Source: Paraburkholderia phytofirmans PsJN
Lineage (GTDB): Bacteria; Pseudomonadota; Gammaproteobacteria; Burkholderiales; Burkholderiaceae
DNA: 64,000 nucleotides
Assembly: GCF_000020125.1 (NCBI RefSeq)
Contig: NC_010681.1
Span: 1,054,001-1,118,000, forward strand
Reading direction: 5' to 3'
The position numbers and the translations under genes were made by a program. The notes below the pieces were generated by a model, which was not told the DNA's origin, ran no database searches, and saw only the letters and a list, made by a program, of their open reading frames with translations. This document shows positions 2,906-26,334 of the stretch, piece after piece (position 1 is the first letter of the stretch; each line of letters opens with the position of its first letter).

Positions 2906-4405
2906 TCAGGCCGCTTCCTTCACGGAAGGCAGCCGCGCAACAAGACGCAGCGACACCGTGAGGCCTTCGAGCTGGAAGTGCGGGCGCAGGAAGAACTTCG
3001 CCTGGTAGTAGCCGGGGTTGCCTTCGACATCCTCGACGACCACTTCGGCTGCCGCCAGCGGGCGGCGTGCTTTGGTTTCCTGCGATGAATTCGCCGGGTC
3101 CGCGTCGACGTAGTTCATGATCCATTCGTTGAGCCAGCGCTGCATATCCTCGCGCTCGCGGAACGTCCCGATCTTGTCGCGCACAATGCACTTCAGGTAG
3201 TGCGCGAATCGCGAGCAGGCGAACAGATACGGTAGACGCGCCGACAGGTTGGCGTTGGCAGTCGCATCCGGATCGTGGTATTCGGCGGGCTTCTGCACCG
3301 ATTGGGCACCGATGAAGGTCGCGTGGTCGGTGTTTTTACGGTGCACGAGCGGAATAAAACCGTTCTTCGACAGTTCGGCTTCGCGACGGTCCGAGATTGC
3401 GATTTCCGTCGGGCACTTCATGTCGATGCCGCCGTCATCGGTCGGGAACGTGTGGCACGGCAAGCTCTCGACCGTGCCGCCCGACTCGACGCCGCGAATC
3501 AGCGAGCACCAGCCATACAGCTTGAACGACCGGTTGATGTTCACGCCCATGGCGTACGCGGCATTGGCCCACGCATAGTTGCGGTGATCTGGACCGTTGG
3601 TGTCTTCCTCGAAATCGAATTCATCGACCGGGTTCGTCTGAGCGCCATACGGCAGACGCGACAGGAAGCGCGGCATTGCGAGCCCGATATAGCGCGCATC
3701 TTCCGTATTGCGCAGGGAATTCCACGGCGCGTACTCGAGATTTTGCGCGAAGATTTTCGTCAGATCGCGCGGGTTGGCGAGTTCCTGCCACGACTCCATC
3801 TGCAGCACCGAGGGCGAGGCCCCCGAGATGAACGGCGTATGCGCGGCTGCGGAGATTTTGGCAATCGAGCCGAGCAGGTCGACGTCGGGCGGTGTGTGGT
3901 CGAAGTAATAGTCAGCAACAAGGCAGCCGTACGGTTCGCCGCCGAGCTGGCCATATTCCTCTTCGTAAATCTGCTTGAAGAGCGGACTCTGATCCCATGC
4001 GAGGCCCTTGTAGCGCTTCATCGTGCGACGCAGTTCCTCCTTCGAAACGTCCATGAAGCGGATCTTCAGCCGCTCGTCCGTTTCGGTGTTCGACACCAGA
4101 TGATGCAGACCGCGCCACGCCGATTCCAGTTTCTGGAAATCGTTGTGGTGGAGGATCAGGTTGATCTGCTCCGACAGCTTGTGATCGATTTGCGCGATGA
4201 TCGCTTCAATGCTCTTGTACGCGTCGTCGCTGATGATGATCGACTGCTGCAGCGCCTGCTCGGCCAGCGTTTGAACCGCATATTCGACGGCGTCCCGAGC
4301 CGCGGCGGTCTTGGGGCGAAATTCCTGCGCGAGCAACTGCGAAAAGTCGGTCTGTGAATGCGCGGCAGTTGCGCTTGCCGTTGCCTTTACCTGCTGTGTT
4401 GTCAT
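2906..4405 (-). CDS. tssC: TssC, large subunit of the T6SS contractile sheath
   Basis: Forms the contractile sheath as a heterodimer with TssB. At 499 aa it has the normal length. Family segments visible include FHKLESAWRGLHHLV-like HNDFQKLESAWRGLHHLV, LFKQIYEEEYGQLGGEPYG, and the C-terminal FFLRPHFQLEGLTVSLRLV. The ATG at 4405 gives the usual TssC N-terminus and no signal peptide is present. It follows tssB by 70 bases on the same strand, the near-universal order, and feeds into the exported-protein gene and hcp. Function is cytoplasmic: polymerisation around the Hcp tube and contraction. Confidence 0.97.
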   Translation of the reverse strand: MTTQQVKATASATAAHSQTDFSQLLAQEFRPKTAAARDAVEYAVQTLAEQALQQSIIISDDAYKSIEAIIAQIDHKLSEQINLILHHNDFQKLESAWRGLHHLVSNTETDERLKIRFMDVSKEELRRTMKRYKGLAWDQSPLFKQIYEEEYGQLGGEPYGCLVADYYFDHTPPDVDLLGSIAKISAAAHTPFISGASPSVLQMESWQELANPRDLTKIFAQNLEYAPWNSLRNTEDARYIGLAMPRFLSRLPYGAQTNPVDEFDFEEDTNGPDHRNYAWANAAYAMGVNINRSFKLYGWCSLIRGVESGGTVESLPCHTFPTDDGGIDMKCPTEIAISDRREAELSKNGFIPLVHRKNTDHATFIGAQSVQKPAEYHDPDATANANLSARLPYLFACSRFAHYLKCIVRDKIGTFREREDMQRWLNEWIMNYVDADPANSSQETKARRPLAAAEVVVEDVEGNPGYYQAKFFLRPHFQLEGLTVSLRLVARLPSVKEAA

Positions 4406-4475
4406 GGTGTGTCTCTGTGGTTCCTTGGTCGTTCTTGAGTCGTTCTTGCCGGTGTGCCTTCGCCAGCAGCGGCGG

Positions 4476-5021
4476 TCAGTTCGACGCCTTGTCGGTATGG
4501 TTGTGTTCTGTCTCGTCGATAACCTTCGGCTTCGGCACGGCGGTGAGCGCCTTCAGCAAGGCTGGATCAGCCAGCAGCTTGTTGACGAGCGCTTCGGCGC
4601 CGGACTTGCCGTCCATATAGGTTTGCAGATTGGCCAGTTGCGTACGCGCGTCGAGCAGGCGATGCAAGGGCTGGACCTTGCTGGCGACGGCGGCCGGCGA
4701 GAAGTCCTCCATGCTTTCGAATGTCATGTCGACCATTAATTGGCCCTCGCCCGTGAGCGTATTGGGCACCGCGAATGCGACGCGTGGCTTGAGCGCTTTC
4801 ATGCGCTCGTCGAAGTTGTCGATATCGATGTCGAGGAAGCGGCGGTCGGCGACAGCCGGCAGCGGTTCGACCGGCTTGCCGGATAGATCGGCAAGCACGC
4901 CCATCACGAATGGCAGTTCTACCTTTTTCTCGGAACCGTAGATCTCGACGTCGTACTCGATCTGGACGCGCGGCGCACGGTTGCGCGCGATGAACTTCTG
5001 CGAACTGTTTGAAACGGACAT
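4476..5021 (-). CDS. tssB: TssB, small subunit of the T6SS contractile sheath
   Basis: Partner of TssC in the sheath and contact point for ClpV recycling. The 181-aa protein begins MSVSNSSQKFIARNRAPRVQ and contains the TssB hallmark VELPFVMGVLADLSG, followed by RRFLDIDIDNFDERMKALKP. It lies 70 bases upstream of tssC and just downstream of tssH. The C-terminus carries a His-rich tail (ETEHNHTDK), a small local oddity. Length and pattern are normal for the family. Confidence 0.96.
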   Translation of the reverse strand: MSVSNSSQKFIARNRAPRVQIEYDVEIYGSEKKVELPFVMGVLADLSGKPVEPLPAVADRRFLDIDIDNFDERMKALKPRVAFAVPNTLTGEGQLMVDMTFESMEDFSPAAVASKVQPLHRLLDARTQLANLQTYMDGKSGAEALVNKLLADPALLKALTAVPKPKVIDETEHNHTDKASN

Positions 5022-5057
5022 GCATGACTCCGTAAGCGTGGGAAATGGCCGGCAGGT

Positions 5058-7778
5058 TTAATGAGTCTCGCCGACTGAAACCGGGGAAATGCTCTCGCTG
5101 AACGCTGGCTTGTTGGCAGATGCAAAGACGAATGCGGCAGCAGGCGTGACGTTGCTGTCGCCGATCTGGATTTCGATGCTCGAGAGGACTCGCTTCGACG
5201 AGAAAGCGTCGAGCCAGAGAGCAGACAGTCTCGGCAGAACGTGTTGCTCGATAAACCCGATCAACACCCGGGCGCCGGTCTCCTGCACGAGGCAGCGGCT
5301 GACGATGTAGTCGATTACCTGTTCGTTGTAATGCAGTGCAATACCATGACTGTCCGCCATGCGCTGCACGACACGGTTCATATGCAGACGCACGATGCTG
5401 GCGAGCGACGCGTGAACCAGCGGGCGATACGGCACGACGGTCACGCGTCCGAGAAAGGCCGCGGGAAATACTTTGAGCAACTCAGGGTTTAACGCTTCAC
5501 GTAGGGCGTCCTGATCGGGTGCGAGTGTGGCGTCCGCGCATAGGCTCGCTGTCAGCTCGGACCCGGCATTGCTGGTCAAAAGGATCGTGGTATTGCGGAA
5601 GTCGATGTAGCGTCCGTCGCCGTCTTCCATGTAGCCCTTGTCGAACACCTGGAAGAACATTTCATGTACGTCGTGATGCGCCTTTTCGATCTCGTCGAGC
5701 AGAACAACTGCATACGGGCGCCGGCGGACGGCTTCTGTCAGCACGCCGCCTTCACCGTAACCGACGTATCCGGGCGGTGCGCCCTTGAGTCCGGAGACCG
5801 TGTGCGCCTCCTGATACTCGCTCATGTTGATCGTGATCAGGTTCTGCTCGCCGCCATACAGAGCTTCGGCCAGTGCGAGCGCCGTTTCCGTCTTGCCGAC
5901 GCCGGACGGCCCCGCCAGCAGAAACACGCCGAGTGGTTTGCGGGGATCGGTAAGACCCGCGCGCGCCGTCTGCACTCGCTCACCGATCTGGCGCAAGGGA
6001 TCACTTTGCCCGATCACGCGGGCGGCGAGTGTTTCGGGCAAGGCGCGCACAGCCGCAACTTCATTCGTTACCATGCGACCGACGGGAATGCCGGTCCAGT
6101 CCGAGACGATTTCCGCGATGACCGTTTCGTCTACTTCCGGGAAAACGAGTGGCGTCTCACCCTGAAGGTCAAGGAGGCTGTGCTCCAGCTGGCCGAGTGT
6201 CGCGAGGGATGGCACAACATCGGCTTGATCCGGGGCGGGCTGGGTAAGGATGGCGTCGCGGGCGCTCGCTAACGCCTGTGCGGCTGCGAGCTGGGCGCGC
6301 CAATGTGCGTCGATTGCGCTTTCCTCCGTGGAGAGCGTACCGATGCGCGCCCTGGCGGCACTCAGCGCCTCCTCCGCATGGAGTCCGATACGCGCCTCCT
6401 GTTCAAGCAGGCCACACTCGACGCGCGCCGCCTGAAGTCGTTGACGCACGCTTTGCAGTTCGCGCGGCGGCGCATGCTGCGAGAGCGCCACGCGTGCGCA
6501 TGCGGTGTCGAGCAGACTGATCGCCTTGTCGGGCAACTGCCGCGAAGGAATATAGCGATGGGACAACGTAACGGCGGCGCGGATCGCTTCGTCTCGGACA
6601 ATCACGCCGTGGTGCTTCGAAAACGTGTCGGCCAGTCCCCGCACCATGTCGATGGCTGCGGCTTCCTGCGGTTCGGGGACCTGCAGTACCTGAAAGCGCC
6701 GGGTGAGAGCGGGATCTTTTTCGATGTGCCGCTTGTACTCCGACCAGGTCGTCGCTCCGATCATGCGCACCGCGCCTCGCGCGAGGGCCGGCTTGAGAAG
6801 ATTGGCGGCGTCGCCGGTGCCGGCCTGACCGCCCGCGCCGACGAGCGTGTGGATTTCGTCGACGAACAGAATGATGGGTGTCTTGGACCGTAACGCGGCT
6901 TCGAGCACGCCTTTGAGCCGCGACTCGAATTCCCCTTTCATACTCGCACCAGCCAGCAATGCGCCGACGTCGAGCGTCATGAGCCGCACGTCGGCCAGCG
7001 CGGGCGGCACGTCGCCGTTAGCGATGGCAAGTGCGAGCCCTTCTACGACAGCGGTCTTGCCGACGCCGGCCTCGCCAGTGAGCAGCGGGTTGTTTTGACG
7101 GCGGCGCAGCAGGATATCGATGATCGTGCGAATCTCCTGCTCGCGTCCCGTCACGATGTCGATTTCACCTGCGCGGGCTCGCGCGCTCAGGTCGCTGCAG
7201 TACTGCTCGATTGGCGAGTTCTTCGAACCTGCGGGCAGTGCCTGCGAAGCCTCGCCCGGCGCTGCGGCGGAGAAGTCCGTGTTGTCGTACGGCGAGTCGG
7301 AAGATTCGGGCGAGCCGTCGATCCACGCAATCAGTTCGTCGCGTGGCGTATCGACCGGGATGCGAGCGAATGCGGGCGAAGCCGAAAGCAGTACCCGACG
7401 CAGTTCCGGCGTGCCAAGCAATGCTGCAAGCAACCACGCGCCGCGTATCCGGCGGTCGCCGAAATCGAGCGTGGCAAGCACCCATGCTCGCTCGACGGCC
7501 AGTTCAATATGGTGCGAGATGTCGCTGATCGAACTGGCGCCTGCGGGCAAGGCGGCGAGCGCCCGTGCGAGATCGCGTTCCAGTGTTGTACGTTCGATTC
7601 CCGCATGCCGGGCAATGCGGTGCATGTCGCTGTCCGGTAATTGCAGCAATTGATGCAGCCAATGGACAAGCTCCACATACGGGTTGCCGCGCAGCTTGCA
7701 AAACGCGGTAGCGGATTCGATGCTGCGGAAGAGTGTGGCCCCGAGCTTGCCAAAGAGTGCCTGGCGGGAAATCGTCAT
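5058..7778 (-). CDS. tssH: TssH/ClpV, AAA+ ATPase that recycles the T6SS sheath
   Basis: Hexameric Clp/Hsp100 ATPase that extracts contracted TssBC sheath subunits. The 906-aa protein has an N-terminal Clp-N-type domain (roughly 1-160), a first AAA domain with Walker A GEAGVGKT at 235-242, a middle region, and a second AAA domain with Walker A GPSGVGKT near residue 640 and LLDEIEKAH as Walker B. The spacing and the N-terminal domain fit ClpV rather than ClpB. It is the first gene of the leftward arm, starting at the AT-rich divergent gap, so a promoter should lie in that gap. tssB follows after 36 bases. Confidence 0.96.
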
Positions 7779-22000: not shown

Positions 22001-22207
22001 GCATCGCGCGACGCGCCTCGTTCGGGTGCGTGTCGCGCCGCAACGAAGCGCATGCATCCGCCAACGGGCGTCGGCGGTGCATGGCCGCTGCGCGGTTGTG
22101 CATGTGGTGTACGTGCCTACACTGAGGCGCGGATCGATGAGGTCTTTACTTACGACCTCGGGATGTTGACGGAAACGGATTAAGTCGGGTTTGATCGGAG
22201 CACAGAG

Positions 22208-22235
22208 ACGGCCGGCGTGGTGGGGCGCCGGCCGT
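22208..22235. terminator. Strong hairpin, possible terminator after the DUF3443 gene
   Basis: Ten-base perfect inverted repeat ACGGCCGGCG / CGCCGGCCGT with an 8-base loop. It lies about 50 bases past the stop of the leftward DUF3443 gene. No clean T-run follows on either strand (TTGTCTATTT on plus), so termination is likely but not certain. Confidence 0.45.
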
Positions 22236-22282
22236 TGTCTATTTCGATTCTCTAATAAGGCAGTTGCGAAGCGCGCGTTCGA

Positions 22283-23926
22283 TCAGAAGGCGATGAACGG
22301 CCCTGGTTGTTTGCCGACCACCACGTTATTGATCGCGGTGTACACGCTTCGGCCGAAGAAGAACGGCAAGCCCCAGATGAACATGCCGGCCGAGGGCGAA
22401 CCCAGGCTGTCGTAAGCGGCGTATTGATTGGTCAGCAGGGTCCAGCCGTTCGCCAGCGAAAACGGTACGTTGACGGATGCGCCGGCTTTGTCGGCGCCGG
22501 TGAGCAAGGCGGACAGGCTGAGCGTGGTTGCCGGCACGTACCAGTCGCCGGAGTAGGGCACCGTGTAGTCCGCAAAGATGTTCGCATTGGAACCGCTGTC
22601 GATGGCGCTGCTAAACGTGTTGCCCTTGTACGTGGTCGAGAAATATCCGTACTGATCGAGCGCGAGAATGTTCGGCTGCGAGGGCATGGCATTGTTGTTC
22701 TGCGTGCCGATACCGAACACCAATTCACCCGTCACGCTCGCCTGGCCGCCCGCGGGCAGCGCGGGCAGACGGATGATCGTGCCGTTGTTGTCCGAGGTGA
22801 AATCGGCGACTGGATTCATGACCTGCGTGTCGAGAGGAACACGCGTGCTCGTGCATGACGTCGCGGACGTGCAGTAGTAATAAGCCGATGGCAGTACCGT
22901 CTGCGCAGCCGCAGGGAAGTCGCGTTGCGCCGGGCCGATGCCGATCACGCCATTCGCGCCGAGCGCCGTTGGCGAGCCGAGGTTGTAGACGCCGCGCGAC
23001 TGGCAGTCCGAGGGCGTCGCGTACTGGTCGTCGGCAATCACCTGCAGCGGCATGTTGCCCGCTGTCTTGCCGCCGATCGTGACGTCCGCGCGCTTGATGG
23101 ACCCCCACGTATAGCCCGATCCGAACACGGCGCATTCGGCGATCGACGCGTTGCCGGTCGGATCGTCGGTGGCGCCGGATTGCTTCGGCAAGTGGGCGGC
23201 GAGCGCGGACCCCAACGCACTGCCGAGCACGCGCACGCCGACCGAGCCGGTGTCGAGCTGCATGTGATCGACTGTCGCGCATTGATTGCTGCCCTGAACG
23301 CCCGGGATGCAGATCGTCGCGGTCACGTACGGCATGTTCGCGTAGTTGCCCGTCCAGCGCTCGATGGTGATGGGGGCGGTATTGGAGGTGGGGGTTGGGG
23401 TTGGGGTGGGCGTCGGAGTCGGTGTCGGCGTTGGAGTCGGTGTTGGTGTTGGTGTTGGTGTTGGTGTTGGTGTCGGAGTCGGAGTCGGAGTCGGAGTCGG
23501 AGTCGGAGTCGGAGTCGGAGTCGGAGTCGGAGTCGGAGTTGGAGTTGGAGTCGGAGTTGGAGTCGGCTTTGGCGCTGGTGCCGGAGTCGGAGTCGGAGTC
23601 GGCATCGGAGTCGGAGTCGGAGTCGGCATCGGCGTCGGCATCGGCGTCGAAGGCGGCGTTGGCTGTGGAATGGGCGTAGGCGTCGGAACGGGCGCCGCTG
23701 GCGCCGTAGACGCTCCACTCGCGCCCGGCGAAGAAGCCGCCGTCGCTCCCGCAGACCCCGCTGCCGGATTTTCGCTATTCTTGGCCGCACTACTGCTGCC
23801 ATCATCGCCGCTACCGCCGCCTCCACACGCAGACAACGCCACGCTGGCACCCAGCAGCGCACAGCAAAGTGTCTTATTCAATGCCTTCATGTTTAGCGTG
23901 TTGAATGAGTCTGCGCGCCGCTTCAT
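22283..23926 (-). CDS. DUF3443 lipoprotein A, aspartic-protease-like, with Pro-Thr linker
   Basis: A 547-aa predicted lipoprotein of the DUF3443 family. Order: N-terminal region with hydrophobic core and lipobox LSAC at about 31-34; Ser/Ala/Gly-rich stretch; Pro-Thr repeat linker (about 79-181); globular domain to the end. The domain has [10 protein letters not shown] near 227, GVIGIG, and [11 protein letters not shown] near 441, resembling the two active-site Asp motifs of pepsin-like proteases. The ATG at 23926 overlaps the stop of the DUF2844 gene (ATGA) with GGAG 9 bases upstream. Protease activity is inferred, not known. Its paralogue lies at 24520-25851. Confidence 0.85.
23386..23690 (-). 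repeat. Hexanucleotide tandem repeat encoding a Pro-Thr linker
   Basis: Within DUF3443 gene A the plus strand runs through hexamers GGAGTC (about ten uninterrupted copies at 23475-23537), GGTGTT (about five at 23443-23472) and variants GGCATC and GGAGTT. On the coding strand each unit adds Pro-Thr (occasionally Pro-Met, Pro-Ala or Pro-Lys). Because units are six bases, gain or loss changes linker length without a frameshift. The repeat also creates long artefactual open frames on other frames. Confidence 0.95.
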
Positions 23927-24375
23927 TGCAGTTGCTCCAAGCGAACGTTAACGGGAACCAGACGCGGCAGATACGCCTTGCCGAAAAAGCGTCCGGCACG
24001 GCCCGCTGACTCGATATGAAAATCGCCGTTGTGTTCGATCATCGGTCCGGCGCCGCGCGCGCGTTGGGCGGCAGCGTTCGTGAAATTGGGAAAGTAGCTG
24101 CCGAGCAGTGCGCTCATATCCGGGCGCACCGGACCTTGCCAGGTGACGGCAAACACCACGTTGCTGGGCAAGACGTATTCATGAATCGTGACGCCGTCGG
24201 CGCCAGACGTAGCGCGCATCGTGTACGGCGCGGCCACTGCGGACGCGTTCAGAGAAACCGCTGATCGGAGCACCGGCTGCGACGCCGCGCCCGTACCTGG
24301 CGCCCCACCCAATGCCGCATAAGAGGCGAGCGGCAACATGCCCGCGACAGCCAGCGCGAGCTTCAAAAAATTCAT
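23923..24375 (-). CDS. DUF2844 exported protein A
   Basis: A 150-aa protein of the uncharacterised DUF2844 family. It has a signal peptide ([20 protein letters not shown]) followed by ALGGAPGTG. The conserved body has [37 protein letters not shown] and, near the end, [10 protein letters not shown]. The ATG at 24375 is preceded by a GGAG site 9 bases upstream. It overlaps DUF3443 gene A, so the two are translated together. Close paralogue of the protein at 25867-26334. Probably periplasmic; function unknown. Confidence 0.85.
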
Positions 24376-24519
24376 CACATTGCTCCAGAAGACAGGTCGG
24401 AGCATGGTGCCAGCGGGGCGTTATTGGGACTGCTGGAAAAGTCCCAATCGAAAATCGGAAATGGCTTGAGAAGACGCCGCTATCGCGCAGCGCCTCCATC
24501 CCAGCCATGCGGCCGGTCG

Positions 24520-25851
24520 TCAGAACGCGACGAACGGGCCTACCAGCTTGCCGGCCTTAGCATTGCCGATCACGTTATAGACGTCGCGGCCATAAAAGAA
24601 CGGCAGTCCCCATAGGAACATGTTGTCGTCACTATTCGAAAAGTACTGGCCGAGATTGATGAACGCGGCGTTTCCGCTTGCCAGCAAATTGTTGGCGTTG
24701 TCGATCGAAAACGGCATCTGGAGCGGCGCGCTTGATCCGTTATTCGGCTCGATCGTCGCGGTCAGTTCAAGTGTGCTCGTCGGTGTGTATAAGCCGTTGA
24801 CCGAAACCGGAATCGCGTTATCCGGGAACGCGTAACCGAGGGTGCCGCTATCGATTGCGCTCTCGTTGAACACCTGCCCCTTGTACTGCGTTCTGAACGT
24901 ACCGTATTTGTCCAACGCAATGACCGTGGCATTCGCCGGCAACGCGTTGTTCTGCTGCGTGCCGACGCCGAACACCAACTGGCCCAAGACGCTTGCCTGA
25001 CCCGTCGCAGGCACAGCGGGCAGACGGATGACCATGCCGTTGTTGTCCGTGGCGAAGGCGGAGACCGGATTCGTGACTTCTTTGCTCGCCAGCATGCGCG
25101 TGCTCACGCAACTGTTTTGCGTCGGGCAATAGTAGTAAAGACCGGGTACCGCTTTGGTCAGGGCATCCAGGGAGTCGCCGGCGAAGTTGTCGATGCCGAG
25201 AATGCCGCTGACTCCCATCACGTCGAGGGACCTGCCCAGGTCGCCGCCGCCGTGCGCAATACAGTCGTCCGGCGTGGTGAATGCGCCATCGGAAACCACC
25301 TGGATCGGGATATTGCTCGCCGTCTTGCTGCCGATCGTGATATCGGCGCGCTTGACCGACCCCCAGGTGTAGCCCGACGCGAACGGCGCGCACTCGGCAA
25401 TCGGCGCCGAGCCGATCTTGTCGTCCACCGCGCCGGCTTGCGTGAGCAGCACAGGGGCCAGCGTGCGTATCGCGCGGGCTGAAATGCGCACGCCTGTCGA
25501 GCCGGTGTCGACCAGCATGTTGTCGACGGTCACGCACTGGGGCGCGCCCTGTGTGCCGGGCACGCAAACCTTGATCGATGCGAGAAGCCGGTTGACGTTG
25601 CCCGTCGATGTATCGACGCGAACCGGCACCGTGTTGTCGCCGGTGGCAGGCGTGGATGAATTGTTCGAGCTACCCGAACCGCCAGAGCCAGGCGGCGCCG
25701 GGGTCCAGGCGGGCTTGGCGTCCCATCCCATGGGGTTGCTGCCCTGGTTGCCACTCGAGCTTCCGCCGCCGCACGCGCAGAGAGCGAGCCCCGCGAGGGC
25801 CGCGACGACCCGTAGCGTCTTCTTCAGTGTGTTCATGTTTTGTTTTTTCAT
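24520..25851 (-). CDS. DUF3443 lipoprotein B, aspartic-protease-like
   Basis: A 443-aa predicted lipoprotein and paralogue of the protein at 22283-23926. It has a lipoprotein signal (VVAALAGLALCAC) followed by a short Gly/Ser/Asn-rich spacer instead of a Pro-Thr linker. The domain has LVDTGSTGVRI near residue 116, GVSGILGID, and AIDSGTLGYAF near 334, again resembling paired aspartic-protease motifs. Both paralogues end GPFVAF or GPFIAF and share a [13 protein letters not shown] segment near the C-terminus. The gene follows DUF2844 gene B by 15 bases. Confidence 0.85.
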   Translation of the reverse strand: MKKQNMNTLKKTLRVVAALAGLALCACGGGSSSGNQGSNPMGWDAKPAWTPAPPGSGGSGSSNNSSTPATGDNTVPVRVDTSTGNVNRLLASIKVCVPGTQGAPQCVTVDNMLVDTGSTGVRISARAIRTLAPVLLTQAGAVDDKIGSAPIAECAPFASGYTWGSVKRADITIGSKTASNIPIQVVSDGAFTTPDDCIAHGGGDLGRSLDVMGVSGILGIDNFAGDSLDALTKAVPGLYYYCPTQNSCVSTRMLASKEVTNPVSAFATDNNGMVIRLPAVPATGQASVLGQLVFGVGTQQNNALPANATVIALDKYGTFRTQYKGQVFNESAIDSGTLGYAFPDNAIPVSVNGLYTPTSTLELTATIEPNNGSSAPLQMPFSIDNANNLLASGNAAFINLGQYFSNSDDNMFLWGLPFFYGRDVYNVIGNAKAGKLVGPFVAF

Positions 25852-25866
25852 CGCTCGACGTCGTGC

Positions 25867-26334
25867 TTATTTCAGATCGCCCGGACGCAGACCGGCGGGC
25901 ATCAAACGAGGTAGCCAGGCCATGCCGCTGAAGCGCCCCATGCGGCCGGCGGATTCGATACGAAAGTCGTCGTTGCCGTCGATCAGCGGCCCGGTGCCTT
26001 GCGCGCGGTTTTGCCCGGCGTTGACGAAGTTGGGAAAGTAGCTGCCGAGCAGCGCCGTCATGTCCGGACGGATTGGGCCGTTCCACTTGACCGCGAACAC
26101 GATGTTCTCGGGCAGCACGTATTCGCGGATGGTGACGCCGTTGGCGTCGACCGATTGGCGCATCGAGTAGGGCGCCGTGTTCTTCGGCTGAACAGCGGCC
26201 GTCGCGGCGGACTGCGACATAGCGCGCAACGTGGCAGGCGAGGCTTCGCCGGTGCCCGGCGCGCCACCCAAGGCTGCATGCGACGCGAGCGGCAACAAGG
26301 TTGCGGCCAACATCGCGGTCTTCAAAAATCTCAT
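25867..26334 (-). CDS. DUF2844 exported protein B
   Basis: A 155-aa paralogue of DUF2844 protein A. It has a signal peptide (MRFLKTAMLAATLLPLASHA) then ALGGAPGTG. The core [37 protein letters not shown] and C-terminal WLPRLMP match protein A closely. A GAGGAG ribosome site 8 bases upstream supports the ATG at 26334. It is the first gene of the four-gene block, so the promoter should lie in 26335-26759. Confidence 0.85.
   Translation of the reverse strand: MRFLKTAMLAATLLPLASHAALGGAPGTGEASPATLRAMSQSAATAAVQPKNTAPYSMRQSVDANGVTIREYVLPENIVFAVKWNGPIRPDMTALLGSYFPNFVNAGQNRAQGTGPLIDGNDDFRIESAGRMGRFSGMAWLPRLMPAGLRPGDLK

Follow-up and report, generated by a model that had tools for sequence, protein, structure and literature searches.

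Four consecutive genes on the minus strand, at positions 22283-26334 of a 64,000-nucleotide stretch of Paraburkholderia phytofirmans PsJN DNA (contig NC_010681.1; the whole stretch is called the window below), alternate between the Pfam families DUF2844 and DUF3443, forming two tandem pairs, A and B. By its predicted fold and its motifs, DUF3443 appears to be pepsin-like. We see an even chance that it is a tethered envelope protease, with DUF2844 as its dedicated regulator, a prosegment or inhibitor that acts in trans and binds close to the cleft. The first-pass annotation of this DNA had proposed an undescribed envelope system, which fits, and neither DUF3443 nor DUF2844 turned up by name in a search of the open-access literature; matches to the accession terms concerned the malaria parasite by title and were taken as gene identifiers beginning PF11_. 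What that annotation missed is the likely identity of DUF3443, whose paired Asp motifs would be part of a two-lobed pepsin-type fold.

Predicted pepsin-type fold of DUF3443

The DUF3443 model aligns with pepsin-type (A1) proteases in both Foldseek and VIA-align, having a two-lobed pepsin fold in a single chain, with model residues 211-585 matched to the two-lobed proteases. The paired motifs noticed at first reading (DTGS and DSGT/S) are present and supply one catalytic-type Asp to each lobe. Both Asp are kept in 152/152 copies of DUF3443 that are paired with DUF2844, a set left from 176 raw pairings once duplicates, short fragments and misassignments in loci at contig edges were taken out. 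The residues following the Asp are slightly more variable among 114 aligned domains (117 rows minus three low-complexity fragments), with DTES, DTSS or DTAS in four and DSGG in two. In addition, a candidate flap residue, Y161, matched to pepsin Tyr75 by motif order, is Tyr or Phe in 137 of the 152, and the family carries conserved Cys.

Sequence searches gave no such link: no aspartic-protease family was found in Pfam for any of 15 DUF3443 members with E up to 10, within the HMMER filters, the NCBIfam search offered no sequence route to pepsin, and sequence searches of the PDB with DUF3443 returned no pepsin. Thus, the connection to pepsin comes from structure comparison, and DUF3443, failing the sequence test for A1, is classed as a variant of the pepsin kind outside A1 proper. 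It is an exported lipoprotein, probably of the outer membrane; an outer-membrane or surface location is what we infer.

Pseudo-enzymes exist among pepsin-like proteins, and DUF3443 could likewise have kept the fold and stopped cutting, the pair then acting as an envelope binding or adhesion module. The second-lobe psi-loop speaks for this alternative, as position 414 is W/L/F/I/Y in 151/152 copies (one gap) and is preceded by Asp in 100/152, unlike the hydrophobic-hydrophobic-Gly motif given in the available part of PMC2761423. However, the first-lobe psi-loop residue, position 217, is I/V/L in all 152, and together with the invariant catalytic Asp it makes a non-cutting protein improbable.

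Pairing, duplication and loss of the partner

Matches were accepted at the curated Pfam cut-offs, 25 bits for DUF3443 (PF11925) and 22.4 bits for DUF2844 (PF11005), which all four window genes exceed. The source genome encodes six members of each family, and all twelve form six pairs, which exceeds chance. The order was sampled with 100 genomes, 11 of which hold 16 DUF3443 copies between them. Fifteen of these copies adjoin a DUF2844 that passes the cut-off; directly downstream of the remaining one (G086, L022) lies a diverged DUF2844, recognized by eye and with a purpose-built profile. In L021 and L022, from one family of the order, the protease gene comes first, with the order reversed and the partner retained.

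In 60 genomes of the window's family, taken as Burkholderiaceae, the identical 25 genomes carry both families, and pairing extends to 58/58 DUF2844 and 58/61 full-length DUF3443. Three of the 64 DUF3443 matches were excluded from this count, namely G150:C129 (profile 163-367 only), G131:C80 (34 positions) and G118:C5 (22.6 bits). The partnership suggested at first reading therefore stands as far as co-occurrence is concerned, and its other part, the physical complex, is backed by the fusion-style AlphaFold model described below. In a phylum sample of 200 genomes, the same five carry DUF2844 and a DUF3443 above the cut-off, the matches in G216 lying 1.1 kb apart; G289 scored below the cut-off. 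Scanning of named genomes yielded 78 loci, including records titled Acidobacteria and Myxococcales, which are metagenome-assembled genomes (MAGs) with possible contamination. DUF2844 lies upstream in 71 of these loci, two are without it, and five end at a contig edge (L048, L049, L050, L053, L094).

No third gene common to the lineages emerged from open reading frame (ORF) clustering of the 78 loci, a rough test covering the 30 largest clusters with shadow ORFs included. The largest cluster outside the pair is found in 17/78 loci, mostly of Paraburkholderia, and presumably sits on the side that bears the urea-transporter-like genes in the window. No natural DUF2844-DUF3443 fusion was seen among the 120 matches listed of 223, all of them PF11925 alone. 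Two DUF2844 genes are seemingly disrupted: a second copy at L047:6858-7256, frameshifted at its C-terminus and retained in dataset A3, and the G023/L023 copy, with a TAG within the profile match.

The tandem duplication itself, with the same gene order, tight spacing and an ATGA overlap, had been described in the first-pass annotation and is borne out by coordinates, Pfam matches and the identities between A and B, 48% for DUF3443 and 61% for DUF2844. A and B are mutual nearest paralogues among the genome's six in both families, the protein distance between them being 0.52 for DUF3443, compared with 0.59-0.63 to the other four paralogues, and 0.37 for DUF2844, compared with 0.64-0.71. Thirteen of the 78 loci contain two complete pairs resembling those of the window, and for 11 of these both family trees agree on an A-like and a B-like pair, suggesting that the pair was probably duplicated as one unit, both copies being retained. 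In the other two, L044 and L045, the A-side DUF2844 groups closer to B (narrowly in L045), so the DUF2844 tree disagrees. A distant tandem of pairs in another genus (L113, L114, L165) looks like an independent event. Over the 152 pairs, the mirror-tree correlation is 0.77, the highest of 999 permutations reaching 0.07, and r is also 0.77 among the genome's own six pairs; common descent explains part of this correlation.

Five DUF3443 copies were found without DUF2844: L110, L111 and L112 in the family sample, and L077 and L092 in the named-genome scan. The second catalytic Asp is gone in L112 and the first in L092, compared with 0/152 paired copies losing either (Fisher p 0.0008, uncorrected for kinship), and this loss of an Asp only where DUF2844 is also missing, among the copies examined, is a further argument against a pair that no longer cuts. 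Of 103 positions at which 90% or more of the paired copies share the residue group, the partnerless five retain 90% on average, and only Y161, 354 and 389 are lost in at least three of them; Y161, the putative flap aromatic, is changed in 3/5 (p 0.011, uncorrected for the 103 positions). Judged from sequence, and with five copies being few, these losses link DUF2844 to an active enzyme and hint at an involvement of the flap.

In the partnerless copy at L112:3320-5122 the catalytic motifs are degenerate (DTHS, ALGL), and the gene is flanked by what we take to be selenocysteine genes, selD-like and selB-like. At L092:5138-6382, from a Myxococcales MAG, the first catalytic Asp is replaced by Gly and DUF2844 is not nearby. 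The L110 copy (3800-5059) adjoins a protein at 5216-7498 that reads as a trimeric autotransporter adhesin-like protein, while a further lipoprotein is encoded upstream and an OmpA-like protein downstream; this neighbourhood is possibly a substrate context.

DUF2844 as a candidate regulator

DUF2844 has a signal peptide and a mature N-terminus (A-L-G-G in copy A), from which a variable linker leads to a domain modelled as beta3-alpha-beta3. Among the 152 pairs the mature N-terminus is conserved, with A(-1) in 91%, L2 in 89% and G3 in 88%, and both window proteins contain the core GPxRPDM(S/T)[10 protein letters not shown], as had been noticed before. Fold searches with DUF2844 gave no clear relative. 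When modelled alone, its predicted template modelling score (pTM) is 0.67, and residues 1-10 are poorly ordered, with a mean predicted local distance difference test (pLDDT) of 57.

The complex was modelled with AlphaFold by reading DUF2844 through into DUF3443 as one chain of 585 residues, resulting in a pTM of 0.85, with the linker enforcing proximity. In the fused chain, the pLDDT of DUF2844 residues 1-10 rises from 57 to 84 (the alone and fused alignments differ), that of residues 81-90 from 74 to 92, and that of residues 91-100 from 67 to 88; the linker (residues ~11-30) reaches a mean of 51-53, against 38-40 alone. These values support, without proving, a predicted docking of DUF2844 on DUF3443. 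Both proteins could instead serve the same pathway with no direct binding, the docked pose being an artefact of fusion, as a covalent linker boosts the effective concentration and the model comes without predicted aligned error or a non-cognate control. We hold this very improbable, because the pTM obtained exceeds the ~0.67-0.73 computed for a DUF2844 placed with at least 20 Å error, and one-to-one pairing persists across paralogues and reversed gene order. No credible interface came out of mean-field direct coupling analysis of the 152 concatenated pairs (effective number 116): the strongest couplings between the proteins keep returning to a small number of variable columns, DUF2844 16, 17 and 44 among them, which looks like phylogeny or noise.

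In the mechanism proposed, the pair would be a two-gene module, where DUF3443 is an exported lipoprotein whose flexible tether carries an aspartic protease of the two-lobed pepsin type, and DUF2844 a small signal-peptide protein usually made just ahead of it. In the envelope, both the globular domain of DUF2844 and its free mature N-terminus (x-L-G) would contact the protease, the probable site being the flap side of the active-site cleft. Acting in trans, as a prosegment or an inhibitor, DUF2844 would aid the maturation of the enzyme and hold it latent, until a trigger, for example low pH or displacement by substrate, ends the latency; docking at the cleft, latency and activity in acid are what we infer. 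Since each duplicated protease retains its own partner, the pair would also duplicate as a unit.

The first-pass annotation had offered chaperone, inhibitor or substrate as roles for DUF2844, and a prosegment or inhibitor acting in trans is the best fit, though unproven, with the chaperone and substrate roles as rivals. The nearest one regards DUF2844 as a chaperone dedicated to export or folding (a steric foldase), or as a permanent second subunit, serving assembly or substrate choice and not inhibition. Pairing, predicted complex and co-divergence fit it equally, and the DUF2844 gene precedes that of DUF3443 in 150/152 pairs. Moreover, L077, L110 and L111 keep both Asp with no partner (3/5), so latency control would sometimes be dispensable. 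Indirectly, the conserved mature N-terminus, ordered in the complex model, and the changed flap residue of the lone copies suggest contact at the cleft over a distant scaffold, and we consider the chaperone or subunit rather unlikely.

DUF2844 as the main substrate of the protease, being matured or releasing a signal upon cleavage, appears more improbable still. One operon can hold a protease with its dedicated substrate, and the variable linker, with its low pLDDT, could be cut; however, this linker is unconserved, the predicted complex takes in the folded domain, and a substrate is not required to duplicate one-to-one with each protease paralogue.

Returning to DUF2844 as a regulator in trans, a bolder version can be put forward tentatively, as a possibility we would bet against: exported bacterial pepsins would form a large family that has gone unrecognised, with the separate, secreted DUF2844 serving as prosegment and its conserved free N-terminus plugging the cleft; this two-gene zymogen, which has multiplied and diversified to as many as six copies per genome among those searched, would give rise to pseudo-proteases upon loss of the partner. 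If DUF3443 is indeed a pepsin, 25 of the 60 family genomes carry one to six exported, lipid-anchored pepsins. There would then be a testable function for two DUF families, a large bacterial outgroup for the origin of two-lobed pepsins, and, for the pepsin class, an unusual mode of control by a prosegment supplied in trans.

Locus organization and related systems

The window genes are transcribed in the order DUF2844_A, DUF3443_A, DUF2844_B and DUF3443_B (Table 1). The DUF2844_A ORF opens at TTG 26349 and that of DUF2844_B at ATG 24405; judging from the GGAG found just 5' of ATG 26334 and 5' of ATG 24375, these are probably the true starts of A and B, respectively. The genes of the B pair overlap by ATGA at 23923-23926, and those of the A pair are separated by a 15-base gap. 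DUF3443_B has a Pro-Thr-rich tether of ~100 residues between its lipid anchor and the protease domain, mostly encoded by hexanucleotide repeats; as the unit preserves the frame, slippage could alter the length of the tether. A GC-rich hairpin of 12 pairs lies at window 22207-22236, 47 bases 3' of DUF3443_B, and terminator-like sites around it barely exceed chance (7 found, some overlapping, against 4.1 expected).

Table 1. Positions of the paired genes and their motifs in the window
Feature	Position	Strand	Evidence
DUF2844_A, secreted partner protein	25867-26334	minus	PF11005 E 1.8e-34, 118.9 bits; start call; fold model
DUF3443_A, lipoprotein with predicted pepsin-fold protease domain	24520-25851	minus	PF11925 E 1.1e-105, 354.1 bits; Foldseek and VIA-align to A1 proteases
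DUF2844_B, second partner copy	23923-24375	minus	PF11005 E 3.9e-34, 117.8 bits; 61% identity to A
DUF3443_B, second protease lipoprotein (predicted)	22283-23926	minus	PF11925 E 3e-114, 382.2 bits; 48% identity to A
DUF3443_A first catalytic motif DTGS (D115)	25498-25509	minus	Sequence; D in 152/152 paired homologues
DUF3443_A second catalytic motif DSGT (D334)	24841-24852	minus	Sequence; D in 152/152 paired homologues
DUF3443_B first catalytic motif DTGS (D225)	23243-23254	minus	Sequence, alignment to A
DUF3443_B second catalytic motif DSGS (D443)	22589-22600	minus	Sequence, alignment to A
Hexanucleotide repeat array, bulk of DUF3443_B Pro-Thr tether	23412-23649	minus	Tandem Repeats Finder: period 6, 39.7 copies

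Compared with family A1, represented by porcine pepsin, endothiapepsin and the Irpex lacteus aspartic proteinase (1wkr), to which neither Pfam nor PDB gave a sequence link, DUF3443 is a tethered bacterial lipoprotein with no prosegment apparent in its chain and with a partner in a separate gene. Bacterial A1 pepsin-type proteases were known from only seven species in 2016, according to the available text of PMC4814920. The shewasins, bacterial pepsin homologues described in the accessible parts of PMC4814920 and PMC2761423 as cytoplasmic and devoid of signal peptide and prosegment, resemble DUF3443 in being bacterial and of the pepsin type; DUF3443, unlike them, is exported and lipidated, has conserved Cys, occurs also in Acidobacteria-titled records and is accompanied by DUF2844.

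The mycobacterial surface aspartic proteases PecA and PE_PGRS16, located on PE_PGRS proteins of type VII secretion, of which PecA cleaves itself (PMC6819658, available part), are bacterial as well and share DTG and DSG motifs in one chain, the surface location being theirs. By its surface location PecA departs from the otherwise cytoplasmic pattern described for bacterial pepsin homologues. The two proteases are set apart from DUF3443 by description, as that part of PMC6819658 mentions no co-encoded partner, and the PE_PGRS16 structure 4EHC is absent from the fold-comparison matches listed for DUF3443. Regarding DUF2844, the nematode aspins (PI-3) are also small secreted proteins that bind pepsin, a binding that for DUF2844 is predicted; in the available portion of PMC3916234, the N-terminal residues of Ascaris PI-3 are discussed for the PI-3-pepsin crystal complex, and the C-terminal domain is stressed for Bm-Aspin. 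No clear fold match was found for DUF2844, and, unlike aspins, it is encoded beside its cognate protease.

Clan AA peptidases are widespread in bacteria and hardly characterised, as stated in 2025 in the part of PMC12239564 at hand, which presents RimB and RloA as retropepsin-like bacterial proteases, RloA being exported and one of them lying in an operon. The clan AA chemistry predicted for DUF3443 is shared with both. However, retropepsins (A2) are described as homodimers with a single lobe and one Asp per chain, whereas DUF3443 holds both lobes and both Asp motifs in a single chain.

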